Positions 24 through 8,491 of a stretch of 44,151 bases of DNA are shown here, in pieces. The position numbers were made by a program, and so were the translations under genes. The stretch is taken from IMG/VR virus record IMGVR_UViG_3300044641_006862, positions 1-44,151 of that record; one strand, 5' to 3'. Each line of letters opens with the position of its first letter. The first letter of the stretch is position 1. This stretch comes from a virus. The notes beneath the pieces are model-generated. The model did no database searches, had not been told where the DNA came from, and saw only the letters and a list, made by a program, of their open reading frames with translations.

Positions 24-512
24 ATGGCTGATTTATTGATGAAAATGCCGATCCCTTACGAACCGAAAAGGGAGAACCGATGGATTTTAAGGTTTCCATC
101 ATCACTTGGTATTAATGAGTGGTATGTAGAAACTACTTCAAGACCAAAACTTACAATTGCGGCAACAGAGATTCAGTTCTTGAATACTTCAACATATGTT
201 GCGGGTAGATTTACTTGGGGAGAACTTCCAGTTACTTTCCGAGACCCTATTGGTCCTTCGGCATCACAAGCAGTTATGGAGTGGATTCGTTTGTGTGCTG
301 AATCCGTAACAGGTCGTATGGGTTACGCTGCGGGTTACAAGAAAAATGTTGACTTAGAAATGTTAGACCCTACAGGAGTTGTTGTTGAGAAATGGATTTT
401 AGAAGGTACTTTCTTAACAGGATACGATGGAGGTTCTTTATCTTATTCAACTGACGGTATTGCTAAAATTTCGGCAAACATGAGAATGGACCGTTGTATA
501 TTAGTTTACTAA
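24..512 (+). CDS. 19: Tail tube protein, T4 gp19-like
   Basis: This 162-residue protein is very close in length to T4 gp19 (163 aa), the subunit of the inner tube that carries DNA through the contracting sheath. Visible features are a tube-protein N-terminus with NRWILRFPSSLG (residues about 18-29), a central TWGELPVTFRD strand pair (about 64-74) and a C-terminal LTGYDGGSLSYSTDGIA stretch (about 131-147) of the kind that closes the tube beta-barrel. The ATG at 24 follows an A-rich leader with no Shine-Dalgarno. The sheath gene, normally just upstream in T4-like phages, would lie outside the window. A candidate terminator follows, which fits a highly expressed structural gene. The family assignment is from recognised pattern, not a search. 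Confidence 0.88.
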   Translation: MADLLMKMPIPYEPKRENRWILRFPSSLGINEWYVETTSRPKLTIAATEIQFLNTSTYVAGRFTWGELPVTFRDPIGPSASQAVMEWIRLCAESVTGRMGYAAGYKKNVDLEMLDPTGVVVEKWILEGTFLTGYDGGSLSYSTDGIAKISANMRMDRCILVY

Positions 513-595: not shown

Positions 596-1366
596 ATGGA
601 ACAAGATGTTTATCAGGCAGGACAAGCCGAGTTTAATTTACCGCACGATGTTATAGAATTACCAAGTAAGGGAATATTTTATAAGTCTAAAAAGAAAGCA
701 ATTAAAGTTGGTTACTTAACGGCCGCTGATGAAAATATCATTGCAAATGCCGATTCTAAAAAAAGTATTCAAGAAAGTATTATTGTACCATTACTTAGAA
801 GTAAAATTTATGAAAGAGATTTACGACCTGAGGAAATGATTGATGGTGATATTGAAGCAATATTAATTTTTTTAAGAAACACTTCTTTTGGTCCTGAATA
901 TACATTATCCGCAATTGACCCCGCAACGGACGAAAGGTTTAAAGCGACAATTGTACTTGATGAATTAAACTATAAAAAAACATCAGTAGAACCTGATGAA
1001 GAAGGATTGTTTTCTGCAACACTACCTGTATCGGGAAAAAAGGTAAAGTTGAAAATTTTAAACATGAAAGATAAAATGGAAATTGATCAGTTAATTGACA
1101 GTTATCCATCTGAAAGAACTGCCCCCGTTATTACAACGAGATTAAACAAACAAATGGTTGCGATTGATGGTGATACCGATAGAAACAAAATTGCAACTTT
1201 CATAGAACAAATGCCTATCGGAGATTCTAAATTTATTAGAAGATTTATTTTCGATAACGAACCAAGATTAGACCTAAAAAAAGAAGTAACAGCCCCGTCA
1301 GGAGAAAAAGTAATTATTGATATTACTTTTGGGGTGGAATTTTTTCGGCCTTTCTTATCAGTATAA
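596..1366 (+). CDS. 26: Tail assembly chaperone / baseplate hub assembly protein, gp26-like (zero-frame product)
   Basis: This 256-residue protein has the DVIELPSKGIFY signature near its N-terminus (about 18-29), typical of T4 gp26-like baseplate proteins (Pfam T4_baseplate family; T4 gp26 is 208 aa). In T4-like phages this family acts in hub and tape-measure assembly and is usually not a major part of the virion. The gene directly precedes the tape measure gene, the classic place of a tail assembly chaperone such as lambda G. The zero-frame ORF ends at 1366 soon after a TTT TTT CGG sequence (1340-1348). An overlapping +1-frame ORF continues to 1502 and is likely joined by frameshifting (see the separate entry). 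No Shine-Dalgarno is seen before the ATG. Confidence 0.78.
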   Translation: MEQDVYQAGQAEFNLPHDVIELPSKGIFYKSKKKAIKVGYLTAADENIIANADSKKSIQESIIVPLLRSKIYERDLRPEEMIDGDIEAILIFLRNTSFGPEYTLSAIDPATDERFKATIVLDELNYKKTSVEPDEEGLFSATLPVSGKKVKLKILNMKDKMEIDQLIDSYPSERTAPVITTRLNKQMVAIDGDTDRNKIATFIEQMPIGDSKFIRRFIFDNEPRLDLKKEVTAPSGEKVIIDITFGVEFFRPFLSV

Positions 1367-1502
1367 GTCAGTTATATTAGACGAATTTTACTATTTCTCA
1401 AGAATTTTCAGAACTCAATACTCTGAGTTTATGTCCATGCCTACTTATGTTAGAAAGTATCTAATGGATAAGTATGTTGAGGATACCAAAAAAAATAAAT
1501 AA
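1344..1502 (+). CDS. C-terminal extension of the gp26-like chaperone, reached by a putative +1 frameshift
   Basis: This +1-frame stretch reads on from the end of the gp26-like ORF. The product would be about 301 aa: 250 zero-frame residues ending VEFF, then about 51 residues starting GLSYQYKS and including SMPTYVRKYLMDKY. It has no convincing start of its own: the only upstream candidate is a TTG at 1317 inside the previous gene, without a ribosome site. The charged, helical, MP..RKYL-type C-terminus resembles gp51/T-type extensions of tail assembly chaperones as I recall them. The shift site would be UUU CGG, where a Phe-tRNA on UUU can slide to UUC. A sequencing indel in the six-T run is the main alternative. 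Confidence 0.6.
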   Translation, partial: FGLSYQYKSVILDEFYYFSRIFRTQYSEFMSMPTYVRKYLMDKYVEDTKKNK

Positions 1503-1526: not shown

Positions 1527-3383
1527 ATGGGATTGTCAGAAGATTTAGATAAAAAGAGTGCCAAAGAACTCAAGGAAATGATCCTTGATCAGGATACTAG
1601 GCTAAAAAATCTTGAAAGACAATCTAAGGAAAAGGGTAGTTCAATTTATGGTAATAAAGCCGCCCAAGAATCAGAAGGAGTAATAAATGCGTTTGATTTT
1701 GATTTAATTAATAAAATTGGATCCACTTTTGAAGCTGCGGTAAAAGGTTTAAAAGATACAATTAATGTATTTGACATGACTGTGTTTGAAGAGTTGGACA
1801 AACAAGCAACTAATATACAGGCAAGTTTTGGTTTAGCAAAAAATAGAATCGGAGAATTTAGGGCAACTATCGCAGAGGCAACTCCTGAGTTGATGATGTT
1901 TGGTTATGAAGAATCTGAGGTCACGGGATTGTTAAAAGAAGCGATGGACGGTTTGGGTACTGCCGCAAGCTTAAGTTCCAAAACAATTATCGAGTTAGGT
2001 GCAACATCAAAAGTCACTGGTCGAGATGTTAAAGAGTTAACAGAAAACTTCAGAGAAGTAGGTATTTCAGTCCAAGGTGTTGGTGAAGAAATGAAATCCG
2101 TTACAGATTACGCAAGAAGTGTTGGTGTTTCTGTAAAAGGAGTTTCTGAATCAGTTTCTGCTAATTTAAAACAAATGAACCTATACAACTTTGAAGGTGG
2201 TGTACAAGGATTGGCAAAAATGGCAGCACAATCTGAAAGGCTTGGGATTAAAATGGATACTGTATTTAGTGTTGCTGAAAAAATATTCAATCCCGAAGGA
2301 GCTATTGAAATGGCTGCAGGACTACAAAGATTGGGTGTTACATCAGGTGCGTTACTTGACCCACTAAGAGCTATGGACTTGGCTCAAAACGACCCTGAAC
2401 AACTTCAAAAAGAAATGGTAAATCTTAGTAAGGAGTTTACCACATTTAATGAGAAGACAGGAAAGATGGAAATTTTACCTGGTGCGAAAAGAAGGTTAAG
2501 AGAAGTGGCAAAAGAATTAGGTGTGATGCCTGACGAGTTTGCAAAAATGTCCATTCAAGCAAGTGACTTTGATAGAAAATTAAAACAAATTCGAATGCCG
2601 TCACTTGCCGAAGGTGATGAAGCAACCAAAGAACTTATTGCATCAATGGCTCAATTAGATGAAAGAGGTGTTGCAACAATACAAGTAAAAGACGAGAAAG
2701 GTTTCCAAACAACTAAAAAAGTTGAGGAATTAACACCTGAAGACATTCAAAATTTACAAAAGGCAAACGAGGAATCTTCAAAAACAATTGAGGAAATTGC
2801 GGTTAATCAATTAGATCAGACTAAACAGATTAATGCTTACTTACAAAGTGGTAGAGTTTCAGGTGCGTTAGCAAAAGCAACGGCACCAAGTATAGAAAAA
2901 CTTGGGTATTTTGTTTCTGACAATACTAAAAGTTTAGCCGAAAATTATAAAAAAGGTTTAGGTACTGTTTCTTCGATGAGAGAAGGAGTCCAAAGTGTTG
3001 CAGGACCAATTGAAGATTATGCATATGGTTTTACAACAGGTAATCAAGAAATAATGAATCAGGCGGTTACTGACTTTGGTACAAGCTTTTCTACACTAGC
3101 CGATAAATTCTTTGATGGTGCACAAGAATATGTAAATAATGTTTTTAATAATGGGATAGAAAGTATTAAATCGACTTTTGGTAGAGAACCACAAACTTCA
3201 CAACCACAAACGGTAAATGTTAATGTAAAAGTTGAAGGTGATTCTAATACTGCAAAAATGGATAAAGAACAAATAACAAATACTGTTATACAAGGATTAC
3301 AAAATCCAAGTGCCTCAAACGCGATGTCTTATGTTCTTGAAGGTGGATCTTCACCAAGTGCAGCAACAGGTAGGAAAAATTAA
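1527..3383 (+). CDS. Tape measure protein, gp29-like
   Basis: This 618-residue protein is mostly helical by composition, with an N-terminal charged coiled-coil (about 1-45). A long Ala/Gly/Ser-rich middle (about 90-290) carries the EVTGLLKEAM and ELGATSKVTGRDVKELT patterns common in phage tape measure proteins. The C-terminus holds a VNVNVKVEGD strand (about 565-574) also seen in this class. Position supports the call: it follows the frameshifted chaperone gene and precedes the tube-initiator-like gene, matching T4 order 29-48-54. T4 gp29 is 590 aa, so a tail of T4-like length is inferred. No clear transmembrane helix or lysozyme domain is visible. Confidence 0.78.
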   Translation: MGLSEDLDKKSAKELKEMILDQDTRLKNLERQSKEKGSSIYGNKAAQESEGVINAFDFDLINKIGSTFEAAVKGLKDTINVFDMTVFEELDKQATNIQASFGLAKNRIGEFRATIAEATPELMMFGYEESEVTGLLKEAMDGLGTAASLSSKTIIELGATSKVTGRDVKELTENFREVGISVQGVGEEMKSVTDYARSVGVSVKGVSESVSANLKQMNLYNFEGGVQGLAKMAAQSERLGIKMDTVFSVAEKIFNPEGAIEMAAGLQRLGVTSGALLDPLRAMDLAQNDPEQLQKEMVNLSKEFTTFNEKTGKMEILPGAKRRLREVAKELGVMPDEFAKMSIQASDFDRKLKQIRMPSLAEGDEATKELIASMAQLDERGVATIQVKDEKGFQTTKKVEELTPEDIQNLQKANEESSKTIEEIAVNQLDQTKQINAYLQSGRVSGALAKATAPSIEKLGYFVSDNTKSLAENYKKGLGTVSSMREGVQSVAGPIEDYAYGFTTGNQEIMNQAVTDFGTSFSTLADKFFDGAQEYVNNVFNNGIESIKSTFGREPQTSQPQTVNVNVKVEGDSNTAKMDKEQITNTVIQGLQNPSASNAMSYVLEGGSSPSAATGRKN

Positions 3384-3418
3384 TAGGTATATACTCCTTA
3401 AAAAAAATACATAATATC

Positions 3419-3426
3419 TATTTATA
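3419..3426 (+). promoter_or_regulatory. TATTTATA motif upstream of the 1684-aa baseplate gene
   Basis: TATTTATA lies 10 nt before the ATG at 3437 in a 53-nt gap. It is the same motif as before six other genes here. Confidence 0.45.
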
Positions 3427-3436
3427 AAATAAAAGT

Positions 3437-6400
3437 ATGGCCGAAAGTTTTTTATCATTTGGTAATTCAGAAACATTTAGAAAACAGTTACTGGTAAGAA
3501 ACCTACCACCATATAATGTGCCGGGAAGTTATACTTCTCCTGATAACCCAATCAACTACGAAACTGATCTTACAGTTAGCAGTGTTGTAGACTCCCCAAA
3601 TAATTATGTCTCAACTAATATATTCGCAAAAGAACTATATCCTTTAAATGAATATGGGCCTGATGGTGGGTTTGGTGTGCCAATCGGTGTTAATTTAACT
3701 CCTATTTTAGAACCAAATCAAGGACCTTATTATCCATTGGATGCTGCTCAAGAAGAAGGATTAGTTGTAATCAATGAGTTTTATATTGAATCGGCATATG
3801 TGACAAACAGATGGGGACCATCAGGAGGATTCAAAGATTTAGTAATAATTACAGATACTTTCTTAACAGATCCTATATACCAACCTTTTTGGAATCCTGG
3901 TTACTACAACTATTCTTCATATTCTTTATTTAATATTGTATTCCAAGATGACCCAATAGGTTCAAACGGTCCATTGTCATCGGATAGTTACTTGGCAAAA
4001 ATTGGAGCCTCTCAGTTAAAGTTTGCGTTTGATGAGAGAGTTGCTCAAGAAATTAATCAGGCAACTATAGGTGCAATAAATTTAGATACAATATCTGATC
4101 CATTTACTGCGAGTTTATTAGCAACAGGTCAACAACCTTTCTTTATTAGAGATTGGAAAATTACCGTTCCTGAAAATCCTTTAGTAAATGCGCTAAATTT
4201 AGCGACTAGAATTACAGGAACATATTTTCCTGTATCATTTATACCTGGAGATTACTTTGATGAGAACACGCCATATGTAAATCCTCAACAACAAAACGGT
4301 ACTTTAAACACTATTAATAATTTAACGGGTGGTTTATTATCACCAATATTAAACAAAAGTAGAAACCCATCTGAAATATTTGTTGCTAATACAGGTAACG
4401 GAACTAGATCTACTTTATTTGCATCATTAAATTATAACTTATATAGACCTTCTTATAATATTGGATTAATACAAGGTCTCTCTGCAGTTGTGGGGGCTTT
4501 GGTTGGTCAAGACACACCGGCAACAGGAACATACTATGTTGGTAGTCCTAACGCTGAACCAAGTTTAATTGATTCTCCACCAAATCAAGTTCCTGTAAAT
4601 CAATTTGGTCAACAACAGGCGACTATTGTTTATGGTCCCCAAGAGTTGGCGATTCTTTATGAAGGTAATAATGAACAAATCAAATTTGGTTTAAAAGGTA
4701 GAGCTTATGAAGATGGTGGTGGAACTGCGGGTCAATTAGTTTGGACTTCACCAAAATACAAACCAAATGCGGGGTTTAGAGCAACAAAAGGTGGTGGAGC
4801 CGGAAGTGTTGACGGAGAGTTCAATGAGATATCAGGAGACTACCTACAGTATGAATCCACAAACATTGATTTTAAACCGGGATCAATTCTTTATAATACC
4901 CAAAGATTGGTCGAATCAGCGGATCAATTACAAGGTGAGGCTAGATTAAAACATGTTGGTACGGCAATCAACCAAGTGTCTAAAGTATTCAATGACGGAT
5001 ATAAAGAACTCACTAAAGGTTCCCAAGTTCTATCATATGTTAATCAAGCGGATGGAACGCAAGCGGGACTTGAATACTGTAGAGTATTCCAAAAAGACAC
5101 TCCATATTTTACTTATGCCGATTTACAAAAAGTTGACGGTATTACTAAAACAGGAAGACAATTCGATTATTCAATTTTTGATAACACATATAACCTTAAC
5201 ATTGCACCTCTTAGAAATCCAGGTTCTACAAACATAGTTGACGGTAAGGTTAAAAAATATATGTTCTCATTAGAGAACTTAGCTTGGAGAACATCAGATA
5301 GACCAGGATTTACTTATGATGATTTACCTGTCTGTGAGAAAGGACCAAATGGTGGAAGAGTAATGTGGTTCCCACCATATAACTTAACATTCTCTGATGA
5401 CTCAAGACCCGAGTTTAACCCAACAACATTCTTAGGAAGACCTGAGCCTATTTATACTTACAAAAATACAAGTAGAAGTGGTCAGTTGAGTTGGACAATA
5501 ATTGTCGATCACCCTGCAATGATGAATACAATTATTGAAAAACAATTAAAAGGTGTTCAAAAAGACAGAATACAAAGTATTGTAGATTCATTCTATGCTG
5601 GTTGTACAAAATATGATCTTTATGAGTTAGGTATTAAGTTTAACACAATACCGACTAAAGATTTATTTGTGTATCAACAAATATTAAACAACCCAAGATT
5701 AACAGAAGAAGAGCAATTCCAAGTTTTACAAAGTTTACCTGTTGATGAAGCAACAAGTACAACTGTTGGAAAGGCAGAAGGTGGTGATGGTAATGCAAAC
5801 AACACAGGAACAGGAACTCAACAAGCAGGAAATCCTGAGTTTGAAACTGTTGATCTTTCTAAGTATGAAGGTACTGGATTCTACTTTCATAATGACATAC
5901 CAAAAGGTAATCCATCTCCTCAGGCGGCGAGCCCTTTTGATGTATATTATAGTGAATATTTAGGATTACAAAATGGGGTTTATAAAACTCAAGCGCCTGC
6001 AAGAGTTAAGTCAGGAAATGATATATTTTCAGGTTCGGGAGTACAGAACTTTTTTAACGAGGTTATTATCGGAAATTTCAATTTTGTTAAAAACGACTTA
6101 ATGAAACAAATTGAAGATATTTTGATAAATAAGAATGGATCAATTGATATTGAAATGATTGGATCCGCTTCGGCAATTGCATCAGTGTCTTACAACCAAA
6201 AATTATCTGAAAGAAGAAATAATTCAGTTCTTAAGTGGTTTTTACAACAACCACTTTCGGGAGGAACAACAATACAAAAATACTATGACGATAAAAGGTT
6301 TAATCTTATACTTAATCCTAATGGTGAAGAAATTGTTATCGCTAAAACAAGAGCTGATGCCTCGGCAACGGCTGATCCTACAGACATTAGTATAAACAAC

Positions 6401-8491
6401 TCTTCAGGTGGAGACATATTAACTGCAAGTGTAAACTGTAGAAACAATGTATTGGATTTAGGTTATAATCCCGCAAAAGTGACTACACAAGCGGAATGGT
6501 ATAGTATACCCGCAATGGCTTGTCGTAGAGTTGCAATAAGTAAAATTTCTGCTAAAGTTCAAAAAGAACCCGAAAAACCTGTAGATCCAGTATCGACACC
6601 GCCTGAACCTGTGGTTAATAACCCACAAGATATTTTAACAGGTATTACACAAAGTATTAAACCTGAACCTAAGATTACTGTAGAACAAAAAATAAAAGAA
6701 GGTATTTCTAAAAAGATACTTAGAAATTTATTTACGGAATGTGATTACTTTGAGGTTATCAAAGAAAGTAATCCAATGGTTTTTGATACAATTAAGGATA
6801 GAATTAAATTCTTTAATCCGGCATTTCACTCTATGACACCTGAAGGTTTAAATGCAAGACTTACATTTTTACATCAGTGTACAAGACCTGGACAAACTAT
6901 TCCAATTATTGGTCCTGACGGTAGACCAAAGTATAATGATGCTTTGAATACTTCATTTGGTGCCCCACCTGTGTTAGTACTAAGAATAGGTGACTTCTTT
7001 AATACTAAGATCATACCTACATCTATGGGATTAACATTTGAACAGTTAGATATTAACCCTGAAGGTATTGGTGTACAACCTATGTTAGCTAAGGTAACGA
7101 TGGGGTTCAATATTATTGGAGGTATGGGACTTAAAGAACCTGTACAACAACTTCAAAACGCACTTTCATTCAATTATTATGCGAATACTGAAATTTATGA
7201 TGAAAGAGCTGTTGCAACTGAAGATACAAGTGAAAGAGATAAATATGTTGTTGAACAGTTAACAGGGGGATTACCGCCAGTTAGTCAACAACAACAGGCG
7301 GCTATTAACAGCGTACAACCTAAACGAGGAGGATCAACAGTTGGTTCAGTGGTTGATGCAACTACAATGGATTATAGTGGTATCTACACGGATTTAGAAA
7401 CAAACATACAAGGATACTTTAAGGCTTATTATGATTCATTAAGTAAAACAACATTAGATTACTCATATGGTGCTGTTTTAATGTCTATTAAAAATAATAA
7501 TTACACAAAAGGTGATGTTGCTGAATACACAAATCAAAAAACCGAAATTCAAATTTTTGGTAAGTCAAATGAATATCAAGATTTTGTAGATGGGTTAGTT
7601 AAAGATTGTGAAGCAGATATTACATTAGGTAATAACCCTATTTTGGAAGCGGCTATAAGTAGATCGGGAGGAATTACAGGAAAACAAAAAAGAGAGATAC
7701 AAGAAAAATTAAAAGCTCAAGTCGGATTAGGAAAGACAGAAATTTTAAATACAATATTCAACAACTCCACAAATATTATATCAGTACAAACTGATTTAAA
7801 CTATGTGTTTAGAAAATTAGATGTTATATCAGATCAGTTAGATGGTAGTATGACACAAACTAATGAACCACTTATGTATGATTTGAGTGGAGATACATTC
7901 TTTAATGTGGACGAAAACAGTGGGTCAGTGTTCGACATCCTAACATTCAAATTAAAAAATATTGTAAAAGAATTTAATGACCTTGTGATTGCAAGAGGGT
8001 TTAATGGTGATAACTATAAAAAACTTAATTCAGTTATAGATAACGGTTCGGGTTGTCAAGTTGTGGTTGGTCAGAACGAATCTTTCTTGGAAAATTGTCC
8101 TACCAATAGATATTACACATTGATGTGTCCTTTCTTCTTAAAAGAAGATAAGTTTACAACTATGGTAAATGAATTAACTAGCGGACCTGAAGTTAAGGGA
8201 GACGCTAATAATTTAGCTAACACAATAACCGCTGAGTGTAATAAATTAAAAGAAGACTTCAAGGCATTCCAAACATATTGGACAAACGAATTAAAGAAGT
8301 TTGAAGATGATCCTGTTTACAAAGAGGCAACAACTTGGAAAGTTCCTGACAACACAGTGAAAACATGTTCATATACAACACCAGCAACAGGTAACTTAAA
8401 CGCAAAAACTAAAAAAATAAAAGATTTGTATTCAAATATTAACTTGAATGATAAGAAAAACACATTCAATGGAAAAGTAACATTTAATTAA
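3437..8491 (+). CDS. Giant baseplate/tail tube initiator-like protein with an OmpA-like domain
   Basis: This 1684-residue virion protein follows the tape measure gene, where T4 places gp48/gp54, the proteins that start tube growth on the baseplate. Residues about 640-735 carry PPYNLTF, then FLGRPEPIYTYKNTSRSG and IIVDHP; residues about 1175-1235 carry VLVLRIGDFFN and KVTMGFNIIGG. Both look like parts of a tube-like beta-barrel. Between them, residues about 870-1040 resemble an OmpA C-terminal peptidoglycan-binding domain, with YNQKLSERRNNSV near 919 and CRRVAISKI near 1032. The C-terminal 400 residues are helical and charged. The N-terminal 600 residues are rich in Tyr, Asn and Pro and unassigned. 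Structural role is fairly sure; the gp48/54 equivalence is inferred from position and pattern. Confidence 0.65.
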   Translation: MAESFLSFGNSETFRKQLLVRNLPPYNVPGSYTSPDNPINYETDLTVSSVVDSPNNYVSTNIFAKELYPLNEYGPDGGFGVPIGVNLTPILEPNQGPYYPLDAAQEEGLVVINEFYIESAYVTNRWGPSGGFKDLVIITDTFLTDPIYQPFWNPGYYNYSSYSLFNIVFQDDPIGSNGPLSSDSYLAKIGASQLKFAFDERVAQEINQATIGAINLDTISDPFTASLLATGQQPFFIRDWKITVPENPLVNALNLATRITGTYFPVSFIPGDYFDENTPYVNPQQQNGTLNTINNLTGGLLSPILNKSRNPSEIFVANTGNGTRSTLFASLNYNLYRPSYNIGLIQGLSAVVGALVGQDTPATGTYYVGSPNAEPSLIDSPPNQVPVNQFGQQQATIVYGPQELAILYEGNNEQIKFGLKGRAYEDGGGTAGQLVWTSPKYKPNAGFRATKGGGAGSVDGEFNEISGDYLQYESTNIDFKPGSILYNTQRLVESADQLQGEARLKHVGTAINQVSKVFNDGYKELTKGSQVLSYVNQADGTQAGLEYCRVFQKDTPYFTYADLQKVDGITKTGRQFDYSIFDNTYNLNIAPLRNPGSTNIVDGKVKKYMFSLENLAWRTSDRPGFTYDDLPVCEKGPNGGRVMWFPPYNLTFSDDSRPEFNPTTFLGRPEPIYTYKNTSRSGQLSWTIIVDHPAMMNTIIEKQLKGVQKDRIQSIVDSFYAGCTKYDLYELGIKFNTIPTKDLFVYQQILNNPRLTEEEQFQVLQSLPVDEATSTTVGKAEGGDGNANNTGTGTQQAGNPEFETVDLSKYEGTGFYFHNDIPKGNPSPQAASPFDVYYSEYLGLQNGVYKTQAPARVKSGNDIFSGSGVQNFFNEVIIGNFNFVKNDLMKQIEDILINKNGSIDIEMIGSASAIASVSYNQKLSERRNNSVLKWFLQQPLSGGTTIQKYYDDKRFNLILNPNGEEIVIAKTRADASATADPTDISINNSSGGDILTASVNCRNNVLDLGYNPAKVTTQAEWYSIPAMACRRVAISKISAKVQKEPEKPVDPVSTPPEPVVNNPQDILTGITQSIKPEPKITVEQKIKEGISKKILRNLFTECDYFEVIKESNPMVFDTIKDRIKFFNPAFHSMTPEGLNARLTFLHQCTRPGQTIPIIGPDGRPKYNDALNTSFGAPPVLVLRIGDFFNTKIIPTSMGLTFEQLDINPEGIGVQPMLAKVTMGFNIIGGMGLKEPVQQLQNALSFNYYANTEIYDERAVATEDTSERDKYVVEQLTGGLPPVSQQQQAAINSVQPKRGGSTVGSVVDATTMDYSGIYTDLETNIQGYFKAYYDSLSKTTLDYSYGAVLMSIKNNNYTKGDVAEYTNQKTEIQIFGKSNEYQDFVDGLVKDCEADITLGNNPILEAAISRSGGITGKQKREIQEKLKAQVGLGKTEILNTIFNNSTNIISVQTDLNYVFRKLDVISDQLDGSMTQTNEPLMYDLSGDTFFNVDENSGSVFDILTFKLKNIVKEFNDLVIARGFNGDNYKKLNSVIDNGSGCQVVVGQNESFLENCPTNRYYTLMCPFFLKEDKFTTMVNELTSGPEVKGDANNLANTITAECNKLKEDFKAFQTYWTNELKKFEDDPVYKEATTWKVPDNTVKTCSYTTPATGNLNAKTKKIKDLYSNINLNDKKNTFNGKVTFN

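Follow-up and report, generated by a model that had tools for sequence, protein, structure and literature searches.

In a large group of aquatic phages, one gene appears to give rise to two forms of a tail assembly chaperone because some ribosomes skip a single base. In the viral DNA analysed here (44,151 nucleotides, hereafter the window), frameshifting at the end of a gp26-like gene is very probable, at roughly 0.9 by our estimate, and the variation of the slip site among relatives indicates that it is in the +1 direction, although no peptide, profiling or reporter data exist. Both frames, the slip site and a hairpin next to it are conserved by selection.

The chaperone gene and its two frames

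The features on which the argument rests, all on the plus strand, are as follows.

24–512, plus strand: tail tube protein gene, the upstream neighbour (phrog_4542, E 5e-21)
596–1366, plus strand: gp26-like tail assembly chaperone, short zero-frame form of 256 aa (PF12322, phrog_150)
1292–1335, plus strand: RNA hairpin with stem 1 (1292–1297/1330–1335), a 9-nt 5′ bulge (1298–1306) and stem 2 (1307–1314/1322–1329)
1340–1348, plus strand: slip site UUU_UUU_CGG, at which peptidyl-tRNA(Phe) is proposed to move +1 from UUU onto UUC (from codon conservation)
1346–1366, plus strand: end of the short form, with the zero-frame residues RPFLSV and the stop (from the sequence)
1347–1502, plus strand: +1-frame extension of 51 codons and a stop, predicted to be a helical C-terminal (T-like) domain (from selection and a model)
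1527–3383, plus strand: probable tape measure gene, the downstream neighbour (from position and a weak match to phrog_10613, E 0.004)

The product of 596–1366 exceeds the curated cut-off of the PF12322 T4_baseplate (gp26) profile (E 8e-8; 32.6 bits against 24.5) and also matches phrog_150, ‘baseplate hub’ (E 2e-14). The ORF ends GTG GAA TTT TTT CGG CCT TTC TTA TCA GTA TAA, and the zero-frame reading GAA TTT TTT CGG on which an earlier note had founded the idea of a +1 slip is present at 1337–1348. In the +1 frame, the reading that begins with GGC at 1347 stays open until the TAA at 1500–1502, and the ATG of the following gene (1527) lies 24 nt further on. When TTTC is decoded as a single Phe step the fusion is exactly 301 aa long, in agreement with the product of about that size, ending before the tape measure gene, which the note had foreseen. 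Its comparison of the gene's position with that of lambda G/GT was likewise sound, since the gene sits between the tail tube gene and a tape-measure-like gene; the match of the latter is weak. The second hallmark of a G/GT-type gene, an overlapping out-of-frame extension under selection, is also present. The −1 frame, on the other hand, shuts 4 codons past the zero-frame stop, and the requirement of an X_XXY_YYZ heptamer together with an open −1 frame is not fulfilled. The gene does conform to the UUU_Ynn/UUU_CGN type of site, with cognate re-pairing from UUU to UUC and an A site occupied by a sense codon that is seldom used. The supposition that CGG is uncommon here and AGA preferred was correct: across the 22 window ORFs, CGG accounts for 2 of 422 Arg codons and AGA for 349, and TTT CGG is found once. 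Against our reading, the +1 A-site codon GGC is likewise rare in these ORFs (4/863 Gly codons). Further along, 3437–8491 encodes a 1684-aa protein with a weak OmpA-like stretch (PF00691, E 0.019).

An AlphaFold model of the fusion (pLDDT 86.4, pTM 0.75) has low confidence at the hinge, residues 254–262, and predicts three C-terminal helices after it (252–270, 275–279 and 283–300). By sequence the fusion matched no solved structure at E 1, and Foldseek with the model gave nothing below E 0.001 and listed no strong relative, although the absence of a row proves nothing. The HK97 tail assembly chaperone, 2ob9, came second in Foldseek as a weak match (E 0.55); the leaders in VIA-align, 3fgx (Z 5.5) and 2ob9 again (Z 4.9, rmsd 4.1, 93 aligned), both lie below the level of a clear match.

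Conservation across homologous gene ends

A first search for homologues, using peptide patterns that do not touch the slip site, returned 42 loci, one of them incomplete. All 41 complete loci, together with the window, keep GGGGTKGARTTTTTTCGGCCTTTC and the same +1 extension, so that the proposed check by alignment came out in favour of the site: both frames and UUUC are retained throughout. The conservation of site and extension is far beyond chance. Added queries (immuto, LR756508, L039, L037 and L035) brought the collection to 359 entries, window included. Six without a stop or a hit were left out, and the remaining 353 reduced to 211 distinct ends; we counted on distinct sequences because many loci are contigs fetched more than once. 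In 209 of the 211 distinct ends, which derive from viral contigs, the same hinge leads into an open +1 extension, behind UUU_CGB (137), UUU_UGG (40), CUU_UGG (27), UUU_CUA (4) or CUU_UAC (1, L087). This variation between UUU_U, CUU_U and UUU_C is consistent with re-pairing of the tRNA. In the other two ends, L139 and L144, the gene is split and the C-terminal part is a separate ORF with its own ATG. A separately started downstream gene had been named as the observation that would refute the proposal; it does exist, but only in these two UGG-clade relatives and not in the window's own clade. L144 retains CUU_UGG despite its split gene, and thus the motif alone is no proof of frameshifting. When 69 proteins were placed on a tree, the window grouped with all 32 of the viral-contig rows that have CGN (support 100/100), and recoding modes are clustered, with 7 changes for 6 labels against 31.7 when shuffled; the deep branches are long and their order is uncertain.

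Codon conservation was assessed in 19 representatives sharing less than 95% nucleotide identity (56–94%). The five successive codons TTT TTT CGG CCT TTC are unchanged in all 19, although among 87 columns whose degenerate residue never varies only 11 also keep a single codon. Synonymous variation is low 5′ of the slip site too. Beyond the point where the zero frame stops, the +1 frame has a pN/pS of 0.27 and the two remaining frames 1.34 and 1.25; gp26 itself has 0.32. Only when read in +1, then, does the extension evolve as a protein. The choice of Arg codon after UUU is equally restricted. Among 138 distinct sequences picked by TTY TTT CG it is CGG in 86, CGC in 30, CGU in 22 and never CGA, whereas the other Arg codons of the same genes (n = 1369) are AGA (1123), AGG (126), CGA (65), CGU (53) and CGC (2), with no CGG at all. 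Neither AGA nor AGG follows the slip codon in any of the 211 distinct ends, including those not picked by TTY TTT CG.

The upstream hairpin and competing explanations

Just 5′ of the site lies a hairpin which the earlier note had not picked up and which is a conserved structure. It ends 4 nt before the first UUU and 7 nt before the presumed P-site codon. One common fold, in which the stem RCCCCR/YGGGGY is joined through a 9-nt 5′ bulge to a second, variable stem, is found in 19/19 representatives, where 97.9% of cells are paired as compared with 46–54% when the partners are slid. A second set comprised 32 more divergent rows with less than 85% identity in the 60 nt upstream of the site. Stem 1 is fully paired (6/6) in every one, and 86.3% of cells are paired, against 79.4% in shuffles and 37–60% when slid; 42 cells are changed on both sides, against 20.6 in shuffles (0/500), and the covariation score is 0.323 against 0.218 (0/500). 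Two of the five measures, pairs changed on both sides (409/500) and pair types (333/500), were not above the shuffles, which leave the kinship among rows in place. Compared with codon-shuffled genes, z was below −1 in 31 of the 32 (median −2.36). When 16 of these genes were scanned lengthwise, the scanning segment ending at the site had a mean z of −2.73, against −0.31 (sd 0.52) for all positions and −1.17 for the next lowest; within single genes it ranked from 1 to 9 among about 78 positions.

A pattern built from the hairpin constants and the slip site found at least 120 stretches, which were tallied apart since such a pattern selects both features. Among the 120 matches listed, a zero-frame stop follows within 12 codons in all, and the +1 extension runs for at least 40 codons in 116, the other 4 being cut by the end of the locus; they comprise 113 distinct elements, 107 of them outside the earlier loci. 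The same hairpin was not found in the UGG-type relatives (UUU_UGG/CUU_UGG), where the codon-shuffled z values are scattered, and because these relatives lack it the hairpin cannot be required at every +1 site. No conserved RNA structure was seen 3′ of the site, where folds of about 70 nt differ between loci. That the hairpin acts as a +1 stimulator is likely, although this role is inferred and there are no functional data. Its 9-nt bulge at 1298–1306, UCAGGAGAA, is nearly invariant, beyond what the peptide SGE requires. The AGGAG within the bulge was considered as a Shine-Dalgarno (SD) sequence and set aside, as it varies (GGAAA, GGAAG) and the window genes lack SDs.

The extension might instead be a separate small protein, started from a +1-frame TTG at 1317 or 1329 and never fused to gp26. 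The earlier statement that it has no start of its own holds in the window for ATG and GTG but fails for TTG, which occurs in the +1 frame just 5′ of the site; a TTG lies upstream of the site in 42/42 CGG loci, so that independent initiation remains formally open in this clade, AGGAG stands 10 nt 5′ of the TTG at 1317, and L139 and L144 demonstrate that the C-terminal part can be a gene by itself. Yet 18 of 93 UGG-type loci keep the extension with no ATG, GTG or TTG anywhere between the upstream +1 stop and a point 12 codons beyond the slip site. Some relatives have lost the TTG at −10 (L009, L011), the TTG at −6 is a consequence of zero-frame TTT GGG, and only 1 of the 22 window genes has an SD-like start. 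Separate initiation would also leave the invariant UUU_CGN and the hairpin unexplained, and we consider it very unlikely. Still less can be said for slippage of RNA polymerase on the six-T run, or for a sequencing error in that run. The T6 run is indeed present at the slip site, but it is not kept among relatives (CUU_UGG in 27/211 and UUU CUA in 4/211 distinct ends; TTC TTT CG in 3/138) that have the same frame relation, and the recurrence of the arrangement in 209 of 211 natural sequences rules out sequencing error.

A ribosomal slip of −2, which UUUUUU permits, would reach the same final frame and add one Phe to the fusion; relatives with UUU_CUU_UGG or UUU_CUA_UGG re-pair poorly at −2, and this direction is hardly credible. 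As for the hairpin, a GC-capped stem followed by U6 could be read as an intrinsic terminator or an attenuator that plays no part in decoding. A terminator would not be expected to have a 4-nt gap and a 9-nt bulge, our terminator scan did not flag the hairpin, termination here would cut the tail genes, and among the 120 pattern matches listed the hairpin is always in frame at this slip site. The chance that this explanation is correct seems to us slim, and +1 ribosomal frameshifting remains the preferred reading.

Mechanism and relation to known systems

In the +1 frameshift that we propose, most ribosomes would terminate at 1366 and yield the short form, whilst a minority would slip with tRNA-Phe on the second UUU, held up by a slow CGN codon in the A site. 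Re-pairing would then be with UUC, a better fit to the GAA anticodon of this tRNA, for which the C after UUU would be required, and translation would resume at GGC to give the 301-aa form with its helical C-terminal domain. The hairpin, refolding behind the ribosome, would probably push it forward in the manner of the internal SD duplex of prfB. That the slippage is ribosomal, and its direction and rate, are inferences. The function is inferred too: if the parallel with lambda G/GT holds, the tape measure and the tube protein would be connected by the long form. The accessible part of a 2016 review lists UUU_Ynn among the sequences at which bacterial ribosomes are prone to shift +1, and gives CUU_U for RF2 (PMC5009743). 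In E. coli extract without RF2, +1 shifting was stimulated by a stable upstream hairpin about 60% as much as by an internal SD (PMC6321510). The distance of 7 nt from hairpin to P site exceeds that of prfB, which counts against our scheme. No tRNA-Arg able to read CGG is encoded in the window; in a 272-kb relative (the contig of L030; L165–L169), six tRNAs lie near five hits, including Phe(GAA) and none for Arg.

An SD-like 4-mer occurs at 1 of the 22 window ORF starts, as compared with 10% of random stretches. The start regions of these ORFs are poorer in SD pairing than random ones (mean duplex energy 0.0 against −1.7). Scarce SD starts are expected for Bacteroidota, and the poor pairing hints at a Bacteroidota-like host. 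Isolates on Flavobacterium (immuto) and Rhodothermus (RM378) fall outside the window's clade. In Flavobacterium johnsoniae, according to the available part of PMC12421855, SDs are rarely used and shifting at prfB is weak. This, together with the few SDs in the window, suggests, purely by inference, that the hairpin does the work of the SD duplex. We therefore put forward, tentatively and at slightly less than even odds, that the hairpin is a natural SD-independent +1 ‘pusher’, an exit-side duplex made of mRNA alone that stands in for the prfB-type SD duplex in hosts, probably Bacteroidota, that hardly use the anti-SD; and that one chaperone family has swapped between +1 shifting (with or without a hairpin), −1 shifting, splitting and duplication whilst keeping the same two proteins. 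The system lends itself to experiment, since an isolated Flavobacterium, sp. LMO8, supports growth of related phages (immuto).

Relatives of the family show this variety. PF12322 is matched by T4 gp26 (E 5e-63) as well as by T4 gp51 (E 4e-52). The extension can be aligned to the C-terminal end of gp51 and to the short T ORFs found in KVP40 and P-SSM2, with one Arg common to 24/24 rows; hhalign gives a probability of 73.8 and E 3e-5 over 44 columns. At the same Phe-Phe, a −1 extension follows U_UUU_UUC in KVP40, P-SSM2, Atu_ph07, 121Q, PA5oct and LR756511, and U_UUU_UUU in XacN1; the +1 relatives are SP-15 (UUU_CAC), RM378 and Mel-JY01 (both UUU_UGG), GXN1 (UUU_CGU), LIS04 and LR756508. The −1 extensions at the gp26 ends of Agrobacterium phage Atu_ph07 (L153, about 3268–3513) and Pseudomonas phage PA5oct (L156, about 3283–3519) are unannotated, and the annotations of immuto and LIS04 contain no CDS for the fusion. 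A clear extension was not found in Slicko01 (L163), which was therefore given no class, nor gp26 in the region of S-PM2 examined. T4 itself was ruled out as a frameshifter, having two genes on opposite strands. In the T4 locus (L048, 7803–9229), gp26 and gp51 are PF12322 paralogues, with an additional C-terminal part in gp51.

Much of this background is already published, as far as sources available only in part allow us to say. The identity of gp26 as a chaperone and the two-gene solution of T4 are not new, some T4-like phages have both a short gene and a longer, fused one, and −1 signals of the poly-T kind have been described in the chaperone genes of T4-like phages (PMC10885494, PMC12846349); PRFect (PMC10885494) and the Adele paper (PMC12846349) both cite Vladimirov, Gautam and Davidson 2022 (Virology 566:9-15). 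We found no earlier report, in open-licence literature only, that this family uses UUU_YGG or UUU_CGN for +1 shifting or has a hairpin upstream of the site, and within that literature the +1 UUU_CGN site with a 5′ hairpin looks like a new version of the tail-chaperone frameshift. The 2016 review describes G-T frameshifting, in the part accessible, as conserved in long-tailed phages ‘except T4’ (PMC5009743); despite this exception, the PF12322 relatives of T4's gp26 appear to use frameshifting abundantly.

With lambda G/GT-type chaperones the window gene shares its place before the tape measure gene and a short form with an out-of-frame 3′ extension (PMC5009743, seen in excerpt). Those systems are mostly −1, whereas the window gene would shift +1 at a sense codon, and its PF12322 product shows no obvious relationship in sequence to lambda G. 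T4 gp26/gp51 belong to the same family as the window gene, with short and long forms as two genes rather than one recoded gene. In the haloarchaeal myovirus HSTV-2, whose host is from another domain of life, the same excerpt calls the chaperone counterpart ‘very likely +1’. The earlier appeal to SPP1 as a +1 precedent stands only in part: SPP1 does have a +1 event, but in the tail tube gene (gp17.1*, CCC_UAA), and its chaperone 17.5 has a putative −1 site, according to the portion of PMC6316719 available. The tetramer is shared, as is the CGN codon, with the amalgavirus UUU_CGN +1 motif (PMC5052127) and with UCC_UUU_CGU of influenza A PA-X (PMC3498833), both papers being partly accessible; these are RNA viruses translated by eukaryotic ribosomes, and kinship is not implied.

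The prfB site (CUU_UGA) shares the +1 direction and a duplex just 5′ of the site, and immuto-type relatives use CUU_U. The window fails the prfB-type criteria, which call for an A-site stop and a free SD 3 nt upstream, its A site being CGG and its GGGGU being part of the hairpin stem; the prfB duplex is formed between SD and anti-SD, and that of the window is an intramolecular hairpin. The hairpins examined in 70S extract share the +1 direction and a position near the E site, but were test constructs (PMC6321510), whereas the window hairpin is natural, conserved and separated by 4 nt from the E-site codon. The gene thus adds a +1, sense-codon, hairpin-assisted design to the known tail-chaperone frameshifts, and if the hairpin is indeed the stimulator, it would be the natural counterpart of the mechanism shown with those constructs.
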